A stretch of DNA of 64,000 bases from an uncultured Thiotrichaceae bacterium (GTDB lineage Bacteria > Pseudomonadota > Gammaproteobacteria > Thiotrichales > Thiotrichaceae), in assembly GCA_937925855.1 (NCBI GenBank), contig CALAMO010000023.1, positions 1 to 64,000 on the forward strand, written 5' to 3'. The position numbers and the translations under genes are program-made. Of this stretch, positions 16,518 to 22,388 are shown piece after piece. Below the pieces are notes generated by a model that was given only the letters and a program-made list of their open reading frames with translations, did not search any database and was not told the DNA's origin. How positions within the stretch are numbered: position 1 is the stretch's first letter; each line of letters starts with the position of its first letter.

Positions 16518-17687
16518 ATGGATTATGAGGTACTGATTGTTGGGGGCGGTATTGTTGGCTCTCTGCTGGCCTGTTTGCTGGGGCAGACTGGGCGGCGCGT
16601 AGCACTGATTGAAACCCAGCGCCCTACGGCTTTAGCGCCGCCGCCTGCTTTTGAGCTGCGGGTATCCGCGTTGAACCGAGCTTCACAGCAGGCCTTGCAA
16701 CAGGTGGGTGCCTGGCCGGAAATGATGGCGCAGCGGTTGGCGCCCTATGCGTCTATGGTGGTTTGGGATGCGACGGGTCGCGGTGAGATTCGGTTTGATG
16801 CCGCCGATTTGGGTGAGACTGAGCTAGGCCATATCGTGGAAAACAAGGTGATCCAGCATGCTTTGCTGGCGCTGATTGAGCGCGCGGCAAACATTGACTT
16901 ACTGTGCCCGGCACAGCTGGCGACCTACGATGTCAGCGCGCAAGGCGTGCAGCTCAGTTTGCGTGATGGCCGCACGTTGCGCGCACAGCTGCTGGTTGGG
17001 GCCGATGGGGCGCATTCATCGGTGCGGGCGCAGGCTAATATTGCTTGGCGGCGGGAGGACTACGGCCAAAAGGGGCTGGTTTGTGTGGCAAAGACCTCAT
17101 CTGCACACCAAGCAACGGCCTGGCAACGGTTTATGCCCACTGGCCCGCTGGCTTTTCTACCGCTGGCGGATCCAAACTACTGTTCGATCGTCTGGTCGCT
17201 GCCTGCTGATCGGGCGGATGTGCTGTTGCAGCAGCAGGCCGCCGCATTTCACCAGAGCCTAAGTGAGGCGCTGGATTATAGACTCGGTGAGGTGCTCGAA
17301 TCTGGCCCACGGGCGGCATTTATCCTACAGGGCGCACGGGCCGAGCACTACGCACAGGAGCAGGTGGTATTGGTCGGTGATGCCGCACATACCATCCACC
17401 CCCTCGCCGGACAGGGCGTGAATCTGGGCATACGTGATGTGCTGGAGCTGAGTACGCAGTTAGCCGACCTGCCGGCGACTGAGCTGGGAAATCTGGCGAC
17501 GCTGCGGCGCTATGAGCGGGCGCGTAAGGGCGATAATATGCTGACATTGAAAGCGATGGAAGGGCTGGCGTTCCTGTTTGGGAATCGCCAGCCCGTATTA
17601 AAGTTTGCGCGCAATGAGGGGCTGGCGCTGCTGAATCATTTACCCCTGTTAAAGCAGGCACTGGCACGGCAGGCGATGGGGGTTTAG
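16518..17687 (+). CDS. UbiH/UbiF/UbiI-family FAD-dependent hydroxylase (ubiquinone synthesis)
   Basis: Flavoprotein monooxygenase of the ubiquinone ring-hydroxylase family, with 389 residues. The FAD-binding GxGxxG is at the N-terminus (VGGGIVGSLLA). The DG motif LLVGADGAHSSVR is near residue 160, and the GD motif VLVGDAAHTIHPLAGQGVNLG is near residue 290. The C-terminal RRYERARKGDN segment is typical. The ring position it hydroxylates cannot be told from sequence by eye. The ATG after AGGA and a seven-base spacer is preferred over a TTG two codons upstream. No other ubi gene is adjacent. Confidence 0.87.
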   Translation: MDYEVLIVGGGIVGSLLACLLGQTGRRVALIETQRPTALAPPPAFELRVSALNRASQQALQQVGAWPEMMAQRLAPYASMVVWDATGRGEIRFDAADLGETELGHIVENKVIQHALLALIERAANIDLLCPAQLATYDVSAQGVQLSLRDGRTLRAQLLVGADGAHSSVRAQANIAWRREDYGQKGLVCVAKTSSAHQATAWQRFMPTGPLAFLPLADPNYCSIVWSLPADRADVLLQQQAAAFHQSLSEALDYRLGEVLESGPRAAFILQGARAEHYAQEQVVLVGDAAHTIHPLAGQGVNLGIRDVLELSTQLADLPATELGNLATLRRYERARKGDNMLTLKAMEGLAFLFGNRQPVLKFARNEGLALLNHLPLLKQALARQAMGV

Positions 17688-17787
17688 GGACGGGCCTGCC
17701 GGAAACCATTTTGCTGTAAATCCGGTTCATGTGAGTGCTTTATTGCGGTAAAGTCAGCGTTATTTTGCAGATTGTGGAGTTGTTACG

Positions 17788-18618
17788 ATGGCACAGATTG
17801 AGCGTTATGCCGTGATCGGCCACCCCATCAAGCACAGCAAGTCGCCGCATATCCATAATGCGTTTGCGCGCCAAACGGGACAGCCGCTGCACTATGTGGC
17901 TTTAGAAGCGCCGCTGGGTGAGTTTGCGCGCAGTTTGGCTGAATTTCGGCAGGCCGGTTTAGCAGGCTGTAACATCACTGCGCCGTTTAAGGAAGACGCC
18001 TGGCGGCTAGCGGATGAGCGCAGTCCGTTGGCAGAGCGCGCCGGGGCGGTGAATACGCTGCTGTTTCGGGGTGATGGGAGCCTATATGGCACCACTACGG
18101 ATGGTAGCGGTTTGGTGCGTGATTTGCAGCATAATCTACAGCTAGCAGTACGGGCTAAGCGGGTGCTGATTCTGGGTGCGGGTGGGGCAGTACGCGGCGT
18201 GTTGGAGGCGCTGCTAGCGTTGCAGCCTGCTGAACTGTGTGTTGCCAATCGAACGGCTGCCAAAGCGGCCGCTCTGGCGGCGGCGTTTGCTGATTTTGGG
18301 CCGATTAGCGGCGTAGGCTTGACGGCAATTGCTGGCTGCTATGACCTGATTATCAACGGCACTGCCGCTAGCTTGCAGGGTAAAATGCCGGAGCTGCCTG
18401 CGGGCTGTTTGGCGTCGGGTGGCAGCTGCTATGACATGATGTATGCGGCTGAGCCGACGGCCTTTATGCGCTGGGGACAGGTGCAGGGTGCTGGGCAGGT
18501 GTCGGATGGCTTGGGTATGCTGGTGGAGCAGGCCGCTGATGCATTTGCGGTTTGGCGTGGCGTGCGGCCGCAGACCGCCGCCGTGCTGGCTGAGCTACGG
18601 CAACAGATGACGGGTTGA
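17788..18618 (+). CDS. aroE: shikimate dehydrogenase (NADP+)
   Basis: Reduces 3-dehydroshikimate to shikimate in the pathway to chorismate. Substrate-site residues are present: SKSPHIHNAF near residue 15, NITAPFKEDAW with the catalytic Lys near residue 66, and TTDGSGLVRD with the Asp near residue 103. The dinucleotide-binding motif GAGGAVRG is near residue 130, followed by VANRTAAKA, which favours NADP+. Length of 276 residues is normal. GTGGAG stands before the ATG. It is flanked by a UbiH-type gene upstream and convergent yceF downstream. Confidence 0.96.
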   Translation: MAQIERYAVIGHPIKHSKSPHIHNAFARQTGQPLHYVALEAPLGEFARSLAEFRQAGLAGCNITAPFKEDAWRLADERSPLAERAGAVNTLLFRGDGSLYGTTTDGSGLVRDLQHNLQLAVRAKRVLILGAGGAVRGVLEALLALQPAELCVANRTAAKAAALAAAFADFGPISGVGLTAIAGCYDLIINGTAASLQGKMPELPAGCLASGGSCYDMMYAAEPTAFMRWGQVQGAGQVSDGLGMLVEQAADAFAVWRGVRPQTAAVLAELRQQMTG

Positions 18619-18670
18619 GCCTGCCTGTAGGGTTGCAACCCGTGCCCATCTCTGCTTTGCGATGTTTGCG

Positions 18671-19267
18671 CTAACCGGGGACGCTAAACCCCTGTTGACG
18701 CAGCATCTGTGCGAGCCTAATCAGTGGGAGGCCGACTAAAGCGTTGGGGTCATCGCCGTGCATGCGCGTAAACAGGCTGATGCCATAGCCTTCAGATTTA
18801 AAGCTGCCCGCGCAGTTATAGGGCTGTTCCTGCTGTAAATAGGCTTCAATTTCTGCGGCGCTCAGCGTGCGGAAACTCACCTCATAGGGAATGCAGTCTA
18901 ACTGGTAGTCCCCGCTGCGGGCATCATATAGACACAGTCCGGTGAGGAAGCGCACCGTTTGGCCTGAGCTGGCACTGAGTTGGGCCACCGCTTGTTCATG
19001 CGTGCCTGGTTTGCCGAGAATCTTGCCGTTTAGGACGGCACACTGGTCTGAACCAATAATCAAGGCCTGCGGGTGATGTGCGACAATGGCCTGTGCTTTT
19101 TGCACGGAGAGGCGCTGCACCATGGCGTCGGCTGACTCATCGGGCAGGCGGGTTTCATCGATGTTGGGCGCGGCCGTTATGAAGGGCAGGTGCAGCTTTT
19201 CCAGGATGCTGTGCCGGTAAACAGAGGTAGAGCTCAGAACCAGTTGGACGGCAGGTTGTGTTAGCAT
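18671..19267 (-). CDS. yceF: Maf-family nucleotide pyrophosphatase YceF
   Basis: Maf-like house-cleaning enzyme; the YceF subgroup prefers 7-methyl-GTP (known for E. coli YceF). The product is 198 residues, with the N-terminal motif SSTSVYRHSILEKL, the catalytic acidic residue in IIGSDQCAVLNG near residue 72, and the KPGTHEQAVAQL segment. The subgroup is supported by position: it is divergent from yceD-rpmF-plsX-fabH, exactly as in E. coli. Confidence 0.92.
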   Translation of the reverse strand: MLTQPAVQLVLSSTSVYRHSILEKLHLPFITAAPNIDETRLPDESADAMVQRLSVQKAQAIVAHHPQALIIGSDQCAVLNGKILGKPGTHEQAVAQLSASSGQTVRFLTGLCLYDARSGDYQLDCIPYEVSFRTLSAAEIEAYLQQEQPYNCAGSFKSEGYGISLFTRMHGDDPNALVGLPLIRLAQMLRQQGFSVPG

Positions 19268-19441
19268 GATGGCCTCTAAAACAGGTTGAATAATGAATTA
19301 AATGCCGCCAGTTGTGGACGCGAATGAACATGGCGGTGCGTCGTATCCAGCGGCAGCGGTGTGCAGCAGGCAGCACAGCGCACTTTATCAGACATTTATT
19401 AGCAGTTTCAGTGAGTTTTAGCTAAAAGCGGTGAATTTTTC

Positions 19442-19471
19442 TTTACAGTAAGGGTATGGGGTTCATATAAT
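19442..19471 (+). promoter_or_regulatory. sigma-70 promoter abutting the yceD start codon
   Basis: TTTACA, an 18-bp spacer and a perfect TATAAT. Transcription should begin about 7 bp after the -10, which is at or within three bases of the yceD ATG. No Shine-Dalgarno sequence lies between them. This predicts a leaderless or nearly leaderless mRNA for the operon. Confidence 0.6.
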
Positions 19472-19480
19472 CCCGCGCTT

Positions 19481-20086
19481 ATGTCGAATAGGTTACCCGT
19501 TGAAGTCAATCCCTTCCGCCTAGTTGAGCAGCGCAGGCAGCTCAGCGGCACGGTTAAGGCGCATACTTTACCTCGCTTGCAGGAGCTGTTAGTCACAGCG
19601 CCGCTGGTGGGTGAAGCCGTTGCGGATGGCCAGAGCCAGCGGGCAGTTATGGGTTCGGACGAGTTCACGGTTGAGTTGAACTTTGATTATTCATTGAGTC
19701 AGCTGCCGATGATCAGCGGAACAGTATGTGGCAGCGTGGCCCTGGAATGCCAGCGCTGCCTAGAGCCGGTTCAGGTCGCGTTTGATGCCCACCTGAATGT
19801 GGTGGTAACCACTTCGCAGACAGATCGACGGCCTGAAGCTGAAGGCCATGAAATCTGTATCGTTGAAGACGAGCGTTTGTTTTTACAGGATTTTATCGAA
19901 GACGAAGTCCTGCTTGCTTTACCGGTCGTTCCTCGGCATGAGCGCTGTGAGCCGGTCAAGGCATTGCGCGAAGTTTCAGCCGATGAGCGTAGCGCCGAGA
20001 CGGGCGATACCCCCACCGAATATCCGCAGGAAAGGGCAGATGAAAACCCCTTTGCTGCTTTAAAAGACTGGAAAAAAACGGAGTAA
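19481..20086 (+). CDS. yceD: YceD / DUF177 protein, large ribosomal RNA accumulation factor
   Basis: Small cytoplasmic protein of the DUF177 family, needed for normal 23S rRNA levels in some bacteria and plants. The 201-residue product has the conserved CQRCLEP motif near residue 90 and the acidic [19 protein letters not shown] stretch near residue 136. It ends with the family tail [11 protein letters not shown]. The N-terminal residues align with E. coli YceD, so the ATG is well supported even though no ribosome-binding site precedes it. rpmF follows after four bases. Confidence 0.93.
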
Positions 20087-20090
20087 CACC

Positions 20091-20294
20091 ATGGCAGTTC
20101 AACAGAATCGCAAAACACGTTCCAAGCGGGGCATGCGGCGTTCACACGATGCGCTGAAAAACCCGACTTTATCGGTAGACCCCACAACGGGTGAGACTCA
20201 TCTGCGCCATCACATGACCGCAGACGGCTTTTACCGGGGGCGTCAGATCATGCCAACAGCGGTTGAAGTTGATGACGATGACGACGACGAGTAA
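20091..20294 (+). CDS. rpmF: 50S ribosomal protein L32
   Basis: Structural protein of the large ribosomal subunit. The N-terminus [22 protein letters not shown] is the family signature, followed by the [12 protein letters not shown] and GFYRGRQ segments. It lacks the four zinc-binding cysteines of the C+ form, so it is the zinc-free type. At 67 residues it is longer than the usual 55-60, because it ends in an unusual acidic run (VDDDDDDE). GGAG precedes the ATG. The gene pair yceD-rpmF is standard. Confidence 0.97.
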
Positions 20295-20338
20295 GCGCTG
20301 CGGGGTAAATACCTTGGTAACGGTTATCTGAATATAAA

Positions 20339-20367
20339 ATCGCGGGCACTAGTCCCGCGATTTTTTT
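20339..20367 (+). terminator. Rho-independent terminator after rpmF
   Basis: ATCGCGGG, a seven-base loop and CCCGCGAT form a perfect 8-bp stem followed by seven T. It lies between rpmF and plsX and ends 15 bp before the plsX start, so it can separate abundant ribosomal mRNA from lipid-synthesis genes. plsX then needs read-through or its own promoter. Confidence 0.9.
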
Positions 20368-20382
20368 GTCGGAGGGAATAAC

Positions 20383-21423
20383 GTGAGCGCAATATACCGA
20401 ATTGCTTTAGATGCAATGAGTGGGGATCATGGGCTGGACGTTATTGTGCCTGCTGCCCTTACTGCCTTAGTACAATACCGCGATATTGAGCTTATCTTGG
20501 TGGGCGATACTGAGAAAGTGCAGGCTGCTTTGGCTAGACATAGCCAGAAACAGCATGCGTCCCTGCGGCACATGATCAGTGTCCAGCATGCCAGTCAGGT
20601 GGTGGACATGGACGAACCCCCAGCTCAGGCGCTGAAAAAGAAAAAAGATTCCTCCATGCGAGTGGCGATTGACCAGGTGAAACTGGGTAAGGCCGCCGCC
20701 GTTGTGAGTGCGGGTAACACCGGTGCCTTAATGGCGATGGGGCGTTTTGTCCTGCGCATGCTGCCGGGGATTGACCGTCCGGCGATTTGCACCGCGATGC
20801 CGACATTGCACGGCCATACCCATATGCTTGACCTAGGGGCGAATGTTGATTCCTCCGCCGAACATTTGTATCAGTTTGCGCTAATGGGGTCGGAGTTAGC
20901 ACAGGCCATCGATGACAACGCTGCGCCTAAGGTTGGTTTGCTGAACATTGGGGCTGAGGCGATTAAAGGTAATGAACAGGTGAAGGCCGCCGATGCGCTG
21001 TTACAGGGTTCTGGGCTAAACTATATTGGCTATGTGGAAGGCGATGATATTTATCTCGGCGATGTAGATGTTATAGTGTGTGATGGGTTTGTGGGCAATG
21101 TTGCGCTGAAGACCAGCGAAGGTCTAGCTAAGATGATTGCCGATAAACTGAAAACCAATTATTCCCGCAGTGTGCTGACGAAATTAGCGGGATTATTTTC
21201 GCTTCCGGTGTTGAATCGTTTTCGCGCCGAAGTCGATCCGCGTCATTATAACGGCGCTAGTTTTCTCGGCCTGCAGGGCATCGTAGTGAAGAGCCATGGC
21301 GGCGCTGATAGTTTGGCGTTTGCCAATGCTATTGGGATTGCCCGTACCGAGATCATAAAAAAAGTTCCACAGCATATTGGTACTCATATCACGGAACTAT
21401 TGGACTTGAGGCAAGCTGGATGA
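20383..21423 (+). CDS. plsX: phosphate acyltransferase PlsX
   Basis: Makes acyl-phosphate from acyl-ACP, the first step toward phosphatidic acid in the PlsX/PlsY route. The 346-residue product starts at GTG behind GGAGGG. Family motifs include [12 protein letters not shown] at the N-terminus, [11 protein letters not shown] near residue 85, and [12 protein letters not shown] near residue 108. It sits directly after the rpmF terminator and overlaps fabH by four bases (ATGA), implying translational coupling. Confidence 0.96.
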
Positions 21424-22388
21424 TCTACGCGCGTATTACCGGTACTGGCAGTTACCTGCCACCCAAAATCATGACCAATGCTGAGCTTGAGAAGATCGTT
21501 GATACGTCCGATCAGTGGATTGTGGAGCGTACCGGTATTCGTCAGCGCCATGTCGCTGAGGATGAAACCGCCAGCGACTTAGCGGTCATTGCTTGCCAAC
21601 AGGCCTTGGCGATGGCGGGTCGAACGGTGGATGACGTTGACCTCATTGTGTTAGGTACTTCGACCCCGGATTTAGTTTTTCCCAGTACGGCTTGCTTGCT
21701 CCAGCAAAAGCTAGGCATCACCAATGGGGGCGCGGCGTTCGATGTGAACGCGGCCTGTGCGGGGTTTTCCTATGCGCTGAGCGTGGCGGATAAATTTGTG
21801 CGCAGCGGCTCGAATAAATGCGTGCTGGTAGTCGGCGCTGAAGTGATGACTAAACTGATGGACTGGTCGGATCGCACGACCTGTGTGCTGTTTGGCGATG
21901 GGGCCGGTGCGGTACTGCTGGAAGCCAGTGACGAGCCGGGTATTCTCTCGACGCATATCCACGCCGATGGTAGCCACCGTGACCTGCTGTATGTCTCTGG
22001 CGGTGTATCGCATCCTTATGACTGGATGCAGGCCGAGGGTGCTTTTCTGAAAATGAAGGGCAATGACGTGTTCCGCACCGCAGTTAAAACGCTGGGTCGG
22101 ATCGTGGATGAGACGCTGGCGGCGAACCAGTTGACTAAGACGGATGTGGACTGGCTGGTGCCGCATCAAGCCAATATCCGTATCATTAACGCCACCGCTA
22201 AAAAGCTCAGCATGTCGATGGATAATGTTGTAGTCACTGTGGGCGAACACGGTAATACCTCATCGGCCTCCATCCCACTGGCGCTGGACGCGGCGGTGCG
22301 TGATGGACGCATTAAACGCGGTGAGACGCTGCTGTTGGAGGCGTTTGGCGGCGGTTTTACTTGGGGCTCGGCGCTGCTGCGCTTCTAA
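21420..22388 (+). CDS. fabH: beta-ketoacyl-ACP synthase III
   Basis: Condenses acetyl-CoA with malonyl-ACP to start fatty acid synthesis. The catalytic triad is visible: Cys in [11 protein letters not shown] near residue 113, His in [10 protein letters not shown] near residue 248, and Asn in [11 protein letters not shown] near residue 278. Length is 322 residues. The usual fabD-fabG-acpP genes do not follow; the next gene is an unrelated hydrolase on the other strand, so the fab cluster is split in this genome. Confidence 0.96.

Follow-up and report, generated by a model that had tools for sequence, protein, structure and literature searches.

The yceD gene of an uncultured Thiotrichaceae bacterium is preceded by a promoter so close to its ATG that almost no room is left for a 5′ leader, and this raises the question of whether the gene is transcribed as a leaderless mRNA, how widely such a layout is kept, and what it might be good for. 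The window analysed here is a stretch of 64,000 nucleotides (contig CALAMO010000023.1), and all coordinates refer to it.

The yceD promoter and start codon

YceD (DUF177, a 23S rRNA accumulation protein of 201 residues) is encoded on the plus strand at 19481..20086, as judged from the open reading frame and profile matches; it matches PF02620 with an E value of 6.4e-19 and 68.6 bits (gathering cut-off 33.2), and scores 70.4 with the NCBIfam YceD equivalog model, below that model's own cut-off of 192. The adjoining rpmF for ribosomal protein L32 (20091..20294, plus strand) has its own Shine-Dalgarno (SD) sequence, GGAG, and is followed by plsX and fabH; a maf/yceF-like gene lies divergently upstream of yceD. 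Folding revealed a hairpin with a T-run 3′ of rpmF and before plsX (20336..20367, plus strand; −18.3 kcal/mol, z −4.4) that the first scan of the region had missed. This hairpin is a probable terminator or attenuator separating yceD-rpmF from plsX-fab and, because it is stable and carries a T-run, transcription may stop at this point in a large share of cases. An Rfam search of 17500-21500 returned nothing at the gathering score.

The original prediction had placed TTTACA-N18-TATAAT ahead of yceD, and this arrangement is indeed present. The −35 hexamer TTTACA (19442..19447) and the −10 hexamer TATAAT (19466..19471), both on the plus strand, were picked up by the promoter scan and are kept in relatives; they are separated by a spacer of 18 nt and together give 11 of 12 hexamer matches to a sigma70 promoter (spacer criterion, 16-18 nt). 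A G+C-rich discriminator, CCCGCGCTT (19472..19480, plus strand), directly adjoins the ATG at 19481, so that TATAAT ends 9 nt before the start codon. The lack of an SD sequence was likewise borne out, as none of AGGA, GGAG and GAGG occurs in the 16 nt preceding the yceD ATG of the window. The ATG itself, which had been taken as the correct start, is fixed by the conserved N-terminal residues that relatives share when read from it. In many relatives the upstream frame reads ...YN-x-ALM and could pass for a coding N-terminal extension, but this string is the translated −10 and discriminator, and an extension is also ruled out by a stop a few codons upstream in several relatives.

The yceD promoter scored 13.6, while the runner-up plus-strand promoter (within about 19309-19560) scored 6.2. 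When both strands of 18900-20600 were scanned, this was the single sigma70-like site reported, with a chance expectation of 1.1 ± 1.0. The local match alone is no proof, since about one such site is expected there by chance, and its significance depends on conservation, on a gene-blind genome scan and on the single occurrence of the pattern in its own genome. TTTACA-N16..18-TATAAT-N7..10-ATG occurred once in the source genome, at yceD (reversed control, 0), and the TTGACA version of the same spacing pattern gave 0 matches there (reversed control, 1).

Conservation of the promoter-abutting layout

The closest named loci came from Thiothrix, Thiolinea and other Thiotrichaceae. With a start rule blind to the promoter, 28 of 29 family relatives had a best promoter whose −10 stopped exactly 9 nt short of the ATG, the exception (L021) being a locus whose contig ends just upstream of yceD. 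The literal sequence TTTAC(A/T)-N18-TATAAT-N9-ATG was found in 26 of the 29, and slight variants were seen in L010 (−35 TTTGCA) and L018 (17-nt spacer). Over 25 distinct Thiotrichaceae sequences the mean column identity was 0.99 for the −35, 1.00 for the −10 and 0.86 for the discriminator, compared with 0.49 for the spacer and 0.49 for −70 to −41; these sequences were picked with the promoter pattern, so that the hexamer identities are partly built in, but the contrast between the discriminator and the spacer or flank is unaffected.

For a wider comparison, 274 gammaproteobacterial genomes were searched, 218 of which gave a YceD match; the better-scoring 148 loci among them were taken, leaving out the window and genome G006, and 144 were scorable. 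Start codons were assigned without regard to the promoter, from how far they lie from the C-x-R-C motif and with a preference for ATG. This protein-distance rule superseded an earlier one, which had given 105/143 at 8-10 nt but sometimes took an ATG within the −10 as the start. The best promoter was sought from −120 to +20 and called strong at a score of 9 or more, and a core SD was defined as AGGA, GGAG or GAGG at −16 to −4.

In this sample of the best 148 of 218, 114 of 144 class loci had 8-10 nt between the end of the −10 and the ATG, and 92 had exactly 9, although these counts are not independent events, because the loci are related to one another, several relatives standing in both L002-L030 and L032-L111. 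A subset with one genome per family gave 66/78 at 8-10 nt. The promoter was strong in 110 of the 114 loci, and when any in-frame start was allowed, a strong promoter at 8-10 nt was present in 118/144. The same scoring gave 0/140 for rpmF, 0/132 for plsX and 6/2880 for shuffled upstream regions. A core SD was found in 0/110 strong yceD loci and 4/144 of all yceD loci, compared with 136/140 for rpmF; plsX, with an SD in 15/132, is a weak control here as its start was picked crudely. All 114 loci at 8-10 nt start with ATG, which the start rule favours, and rpmF lies downstream of yceD in 106 of the 110 strong loci. The first 40 nt of yceD fold weakly (mean −6.1 kcal/mol, compared with −10.0 kcal/mol inside the gene), as most genes would. 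At the level of sequence comparison, the promoter-abutting layout is confirmed as a class-wide feature of yceD, and more strongly than first claimed.

The remaining 30 of the 144 class loci do not fit, in part through start mis-calls and in part genuinely. Among 80 named loci, 78 of them scorable, a strong promoter stood at 8-10 nt in 39/78, and in 19 further named loci, from Acinetobacter, the −10 sits 13 nt before the ATG. In Corticimicrobacter (L085) the best promoter is 30 nt upstream of the yceD ATG, and no strong promoter was found close to yceD in two genomes that share a family (L169 and L198); some branches may have lost the layout. Thirty loci were fetched from other classes of Pseudomonadota; 5 of them offered no ATG candidate, and of the 25 scored none had a strong promoter at 8-10 nt.

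We also searched the 274 genomes without regard to genes. TTTGACA-N17,18-TANNAT-N8,9-ATG, a pattern shaped after the yceD sequences were known, gave 109 matches in 101 genomes, and its reversed form gave 9 by hand count. Of these matches 77 were at listed YceD places and 15 of the other 32 open a YceD frame, giving 92 at yceD and 17 elsewhere. With plain TTGACA there were 160 matches in 136 of the 274 genomes compared with 42 for the reversed form, about 68 of the 160 lying outside yceD (hand counts among the matches listed), and the perfect-consensus TTGACA..TATAAT..ATG gave 16 matches in 13 of the genomes; both outcomes limit the reading. The idea that the window merely holds a chance match to the promoter consensus, to which the one site found locally against 1.1 expected would lend itself, is contradicted by both the conservation and the gene-blind scans, and we give it practically no credence.

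Where transcription starts

Position 19478, 7 nt past the −10 of the window, is a C, and the first purine from there onward is the A of the yceD ATG, which is accordingly the predicted transcription start (19481, plus strand), with 19477-19480 as alternatives. This A, 10 nt past the −10, is at the far end of the usual start-site choice. Of the 110 strong class loci, 87 have no purine from 7 nt past the −10 until the A of the ATG, and the other 23 have one 1-4 nt earlier; pyrimidines occupy the two positions just ahead of the ATG in 93% and 97% of class loci. Most Acinetobacter loci read TAGAAT-TGCCGCCTT-AATT-ATG, where an A occupies the usual place relative to the −10 and the ATG is shifted by 4 nt. 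The simplest reading is that transcription begins at the A in that place, and if so, most of the class would be leaderless and the Acinetobacter leader would be about 4 nt long.

Leaderless mRNAs are defined, in a passage of PMC3293720, as those whose transcription starts at the AUG or no more than 6 nt ahead of it. The window yceD lacks an SD and starts with AUG, and its start position is predicted from promoter position and conservation. That the transcript is leaderless, with its start at or within three bases of the ATG, had been the core of the original prediction; the leaderless part has gained strong support from the class-wide distance between −10 and ATG, from the absence of an SD and from a remark on E. 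coli in PMC4378010, while the exact start stays a predicted one. On these grounds yceD is very likely leaderless.

The E. coli K-12 gene reads TTGACT-N17-TAATAT-GCGCGCCCT-ATG. As in the window, its promoter abuts the ATG at 9 nt, there is no SD and rpmF comes next, whereas the elements themselves differ (TTGACT/17/TAATAT compared with TTTACA/18/TATAAT). According to the passing remark in PMC4378010, a paper that includes ribosome profiling, E. coli yceD is without a 5′ noncoding leader, and its translation is less efficient than that of rpmF in the same operon. Two promoters, yceDp1 and yceDp2, are given for E. coli in a legend of PMC13060810 that cites Tanaka 1989, whereas one strong promoter is seen in the window; longer transcripts may therefore exist in E. 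coli. A second, upstream promoter could then make the main transcript, with yceD translated from a longer leader that has no SD, and the noncoding RNA SraB is indeed annotated upstream of E. coli yceD. Yet SraB as annotated stops short of the conserved promoter region, the conserved element is the abutting promoter, and the window's runner-up scores less than half as high as the yceD promoter, so we regard a main transcript from upstream as improbable.

Lambda cI, tetR of Tn1721 and E. coli rhlB, rluC, racR, hprR, dicA and cohE have, like the predicted yceD mRNA, a 5′-terminal or nearly terminal AUG and no SD (passages in PMC3293720 and PMC8794815); many of this classical set are regulators, whereas yceD has a ribosome-related housekeeping role, a class-wide layout and a predicted start. 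Six leaderless genes are named as known for E. coli in passages of PMC8794815, yceD not among them. Excerpts of PMC3293720 and PMC3415461 give 33 leaderless genes by dRNA-seq in Salmonella and, by mapping, 18 in E. coli and 10 in Klebsiella. A genome-level survey reported leaderless genes for 15 of 239 gammaproteobacterial genomes, a single loss event being suggested for the others (excerpts of PMC3160421), and leaderless mRNAs are described in part of PMC9031893 as rare in enterobacteria and unclear in their physiological role. A literature search of partial coverage found no report of a class-wide conservation of leaderless yceD. What appears to be new is how deeply the layout is conserved, as leaderless mRNA as a kind and the remark on E. 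coli yceD are already in print. Start prediction that expects an SD may misplace the start of yceD.

Possible roles of a leaderless yceD

Stringently controlled promoters have a G+C-rich discriminator, and so do rRNA P1-type promoters, which start with an A about 9-10 nt past the −10. The yceD promoter resembles the rRNA P1 type in both its discriminator and its predicted A start at about 9-10 nt; the 7 nt past the −10 are 84% G+C over 110 class loci compared with a background of 51%, and G and C are interchangeable at several positions. Unlike in rRNA P1, the predicted +1 of yceD would be the first base of the coding sequence.

An economical model can be drawn from these features, in which one growth-controlled transcript serves a weak leaderless initiation on yceD and a strong SD-dependent one on rpmF. 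The main yceD-rpmF promoter would be fused to the yceD start codon, and transcription would run from the A of the AUG or from at most about 4 nt earlier. The 5′-terminal AUG would then be recognised directly, largely by 70S ribosomes, and yceD would be translated leaderless. Because yceD would initiate more weakly than rpmF with its SD, a single transcript would yield little YceD and much L32, and the E. coli ribosome profiling, as far as it is presented in the relevant part of PMC4378010, fits this output. The G+C-rich discriminator may impose growth-rate or ppGpp-type control, as on rRNA promoters. At the stationary transition of E. coli O157, yceD was down 2.86-fold and rpmF 2.36-fold (data excerpted from PMC2241611). 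We consider it probable that the class has an old leaderless yceD mRNA, combining an rRNA-like, G+C-rich discriminator with growth-linked transcription and a low yield of YceD relative to L32.

It is possible, if less probable, that selection acts on the rRNA-like promoter with its G+C-rich discriminator and A start, and that the ATG has come to lie at +1 without a function of its own. The interchangeability of G and C in a discriminator so rich in both would agree with this, as would Acinetobacter, which retains the promoter with an ATG displaced by 4 nt; but a single spacing dominates (exactly 9 nt in 92/144), although many ATG positions would spare the promoter, and neither rpmF nor plsX has such a layout.

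A further proposal, raised with the original prediction, is feedback from the ribosome: a leaderless mRNA favours 70S ribosomes and responds to the balance of initiation factors, so that YceD synthesis would read the ribosome pool and adjust 23S rRNA. An E. coli yceD deletion lowers 23S rRNA, with no growth defect in rich medium (passage in PMC5049393), leaderless initiation depends on 70S and initiation factor levels in model systems (part of PMC9031893), and the conserved layout belongs to a gene adjoining rpmF (downstream in 106/110). On the other side, rpmF RNA was not significantly changed by the yceD deletion, as reported in the same part of PMC5049393, and kasugamycin affected endogenous E. 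coli leaderless mRNAs like others in the experiments excerpted from PMC8794815. We think feedback of this kind rather unlikely, and a low output of YceD relative to L32 would be a simpler role, one that also fits the E. coli ribosome profiling. That yceD was ancestrally leaderless and has been kept so by selection, with 70S-type initiation tying synthesis of a 23S rRNA factor to the ribosome pool as a ribosome-assembly sensor, is a speculation to which we give equally little weight. If it were true, it would be an endogenous and conserved use of leaderless translation in a group thought mostly to have lost its leaderless genes. As a housekeeping gene whose layout is shared class-wide, E. coli included, yceD is a tractable case for asking what leaderless initiation is for.

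The strength of the promoter may itself be tuned. None of the 110 strong yceD promoters has both hexamers perfect: those with TTGACA as their −35 have a −10 that deviates from TATAAT, and the Thiotrichaceae combine a perfect −10 with a −35 that is mostly TTTACA. As no promoter joins two perfect hexamers, the hexamer sequences suggest that yceD promoter strength is held below its maximum, which would suit a tuned strength.

Two kinds of match outside yceD deserve mention. At loci L319 and L320 (G254:C2 and G137:C10), from two genomes that belong to one genus, the same promoter-abutting-ATG pattern stands before short Cys-rich open reading frames of 20 and 19 residues, MRNCSALILPLYCYSCCSCC and MKNCSALILPLYCCCSCCC, each perhaps a leaderless leader peptide. 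Genome G211 has repeated copies of TTGACA..TANNAT..ATG, identical in contigs C75, C154 and C225 and similar in C194 and C204 among the matches listed, which probably represent a mobile or repeated element whose promoter abuts an ATG.
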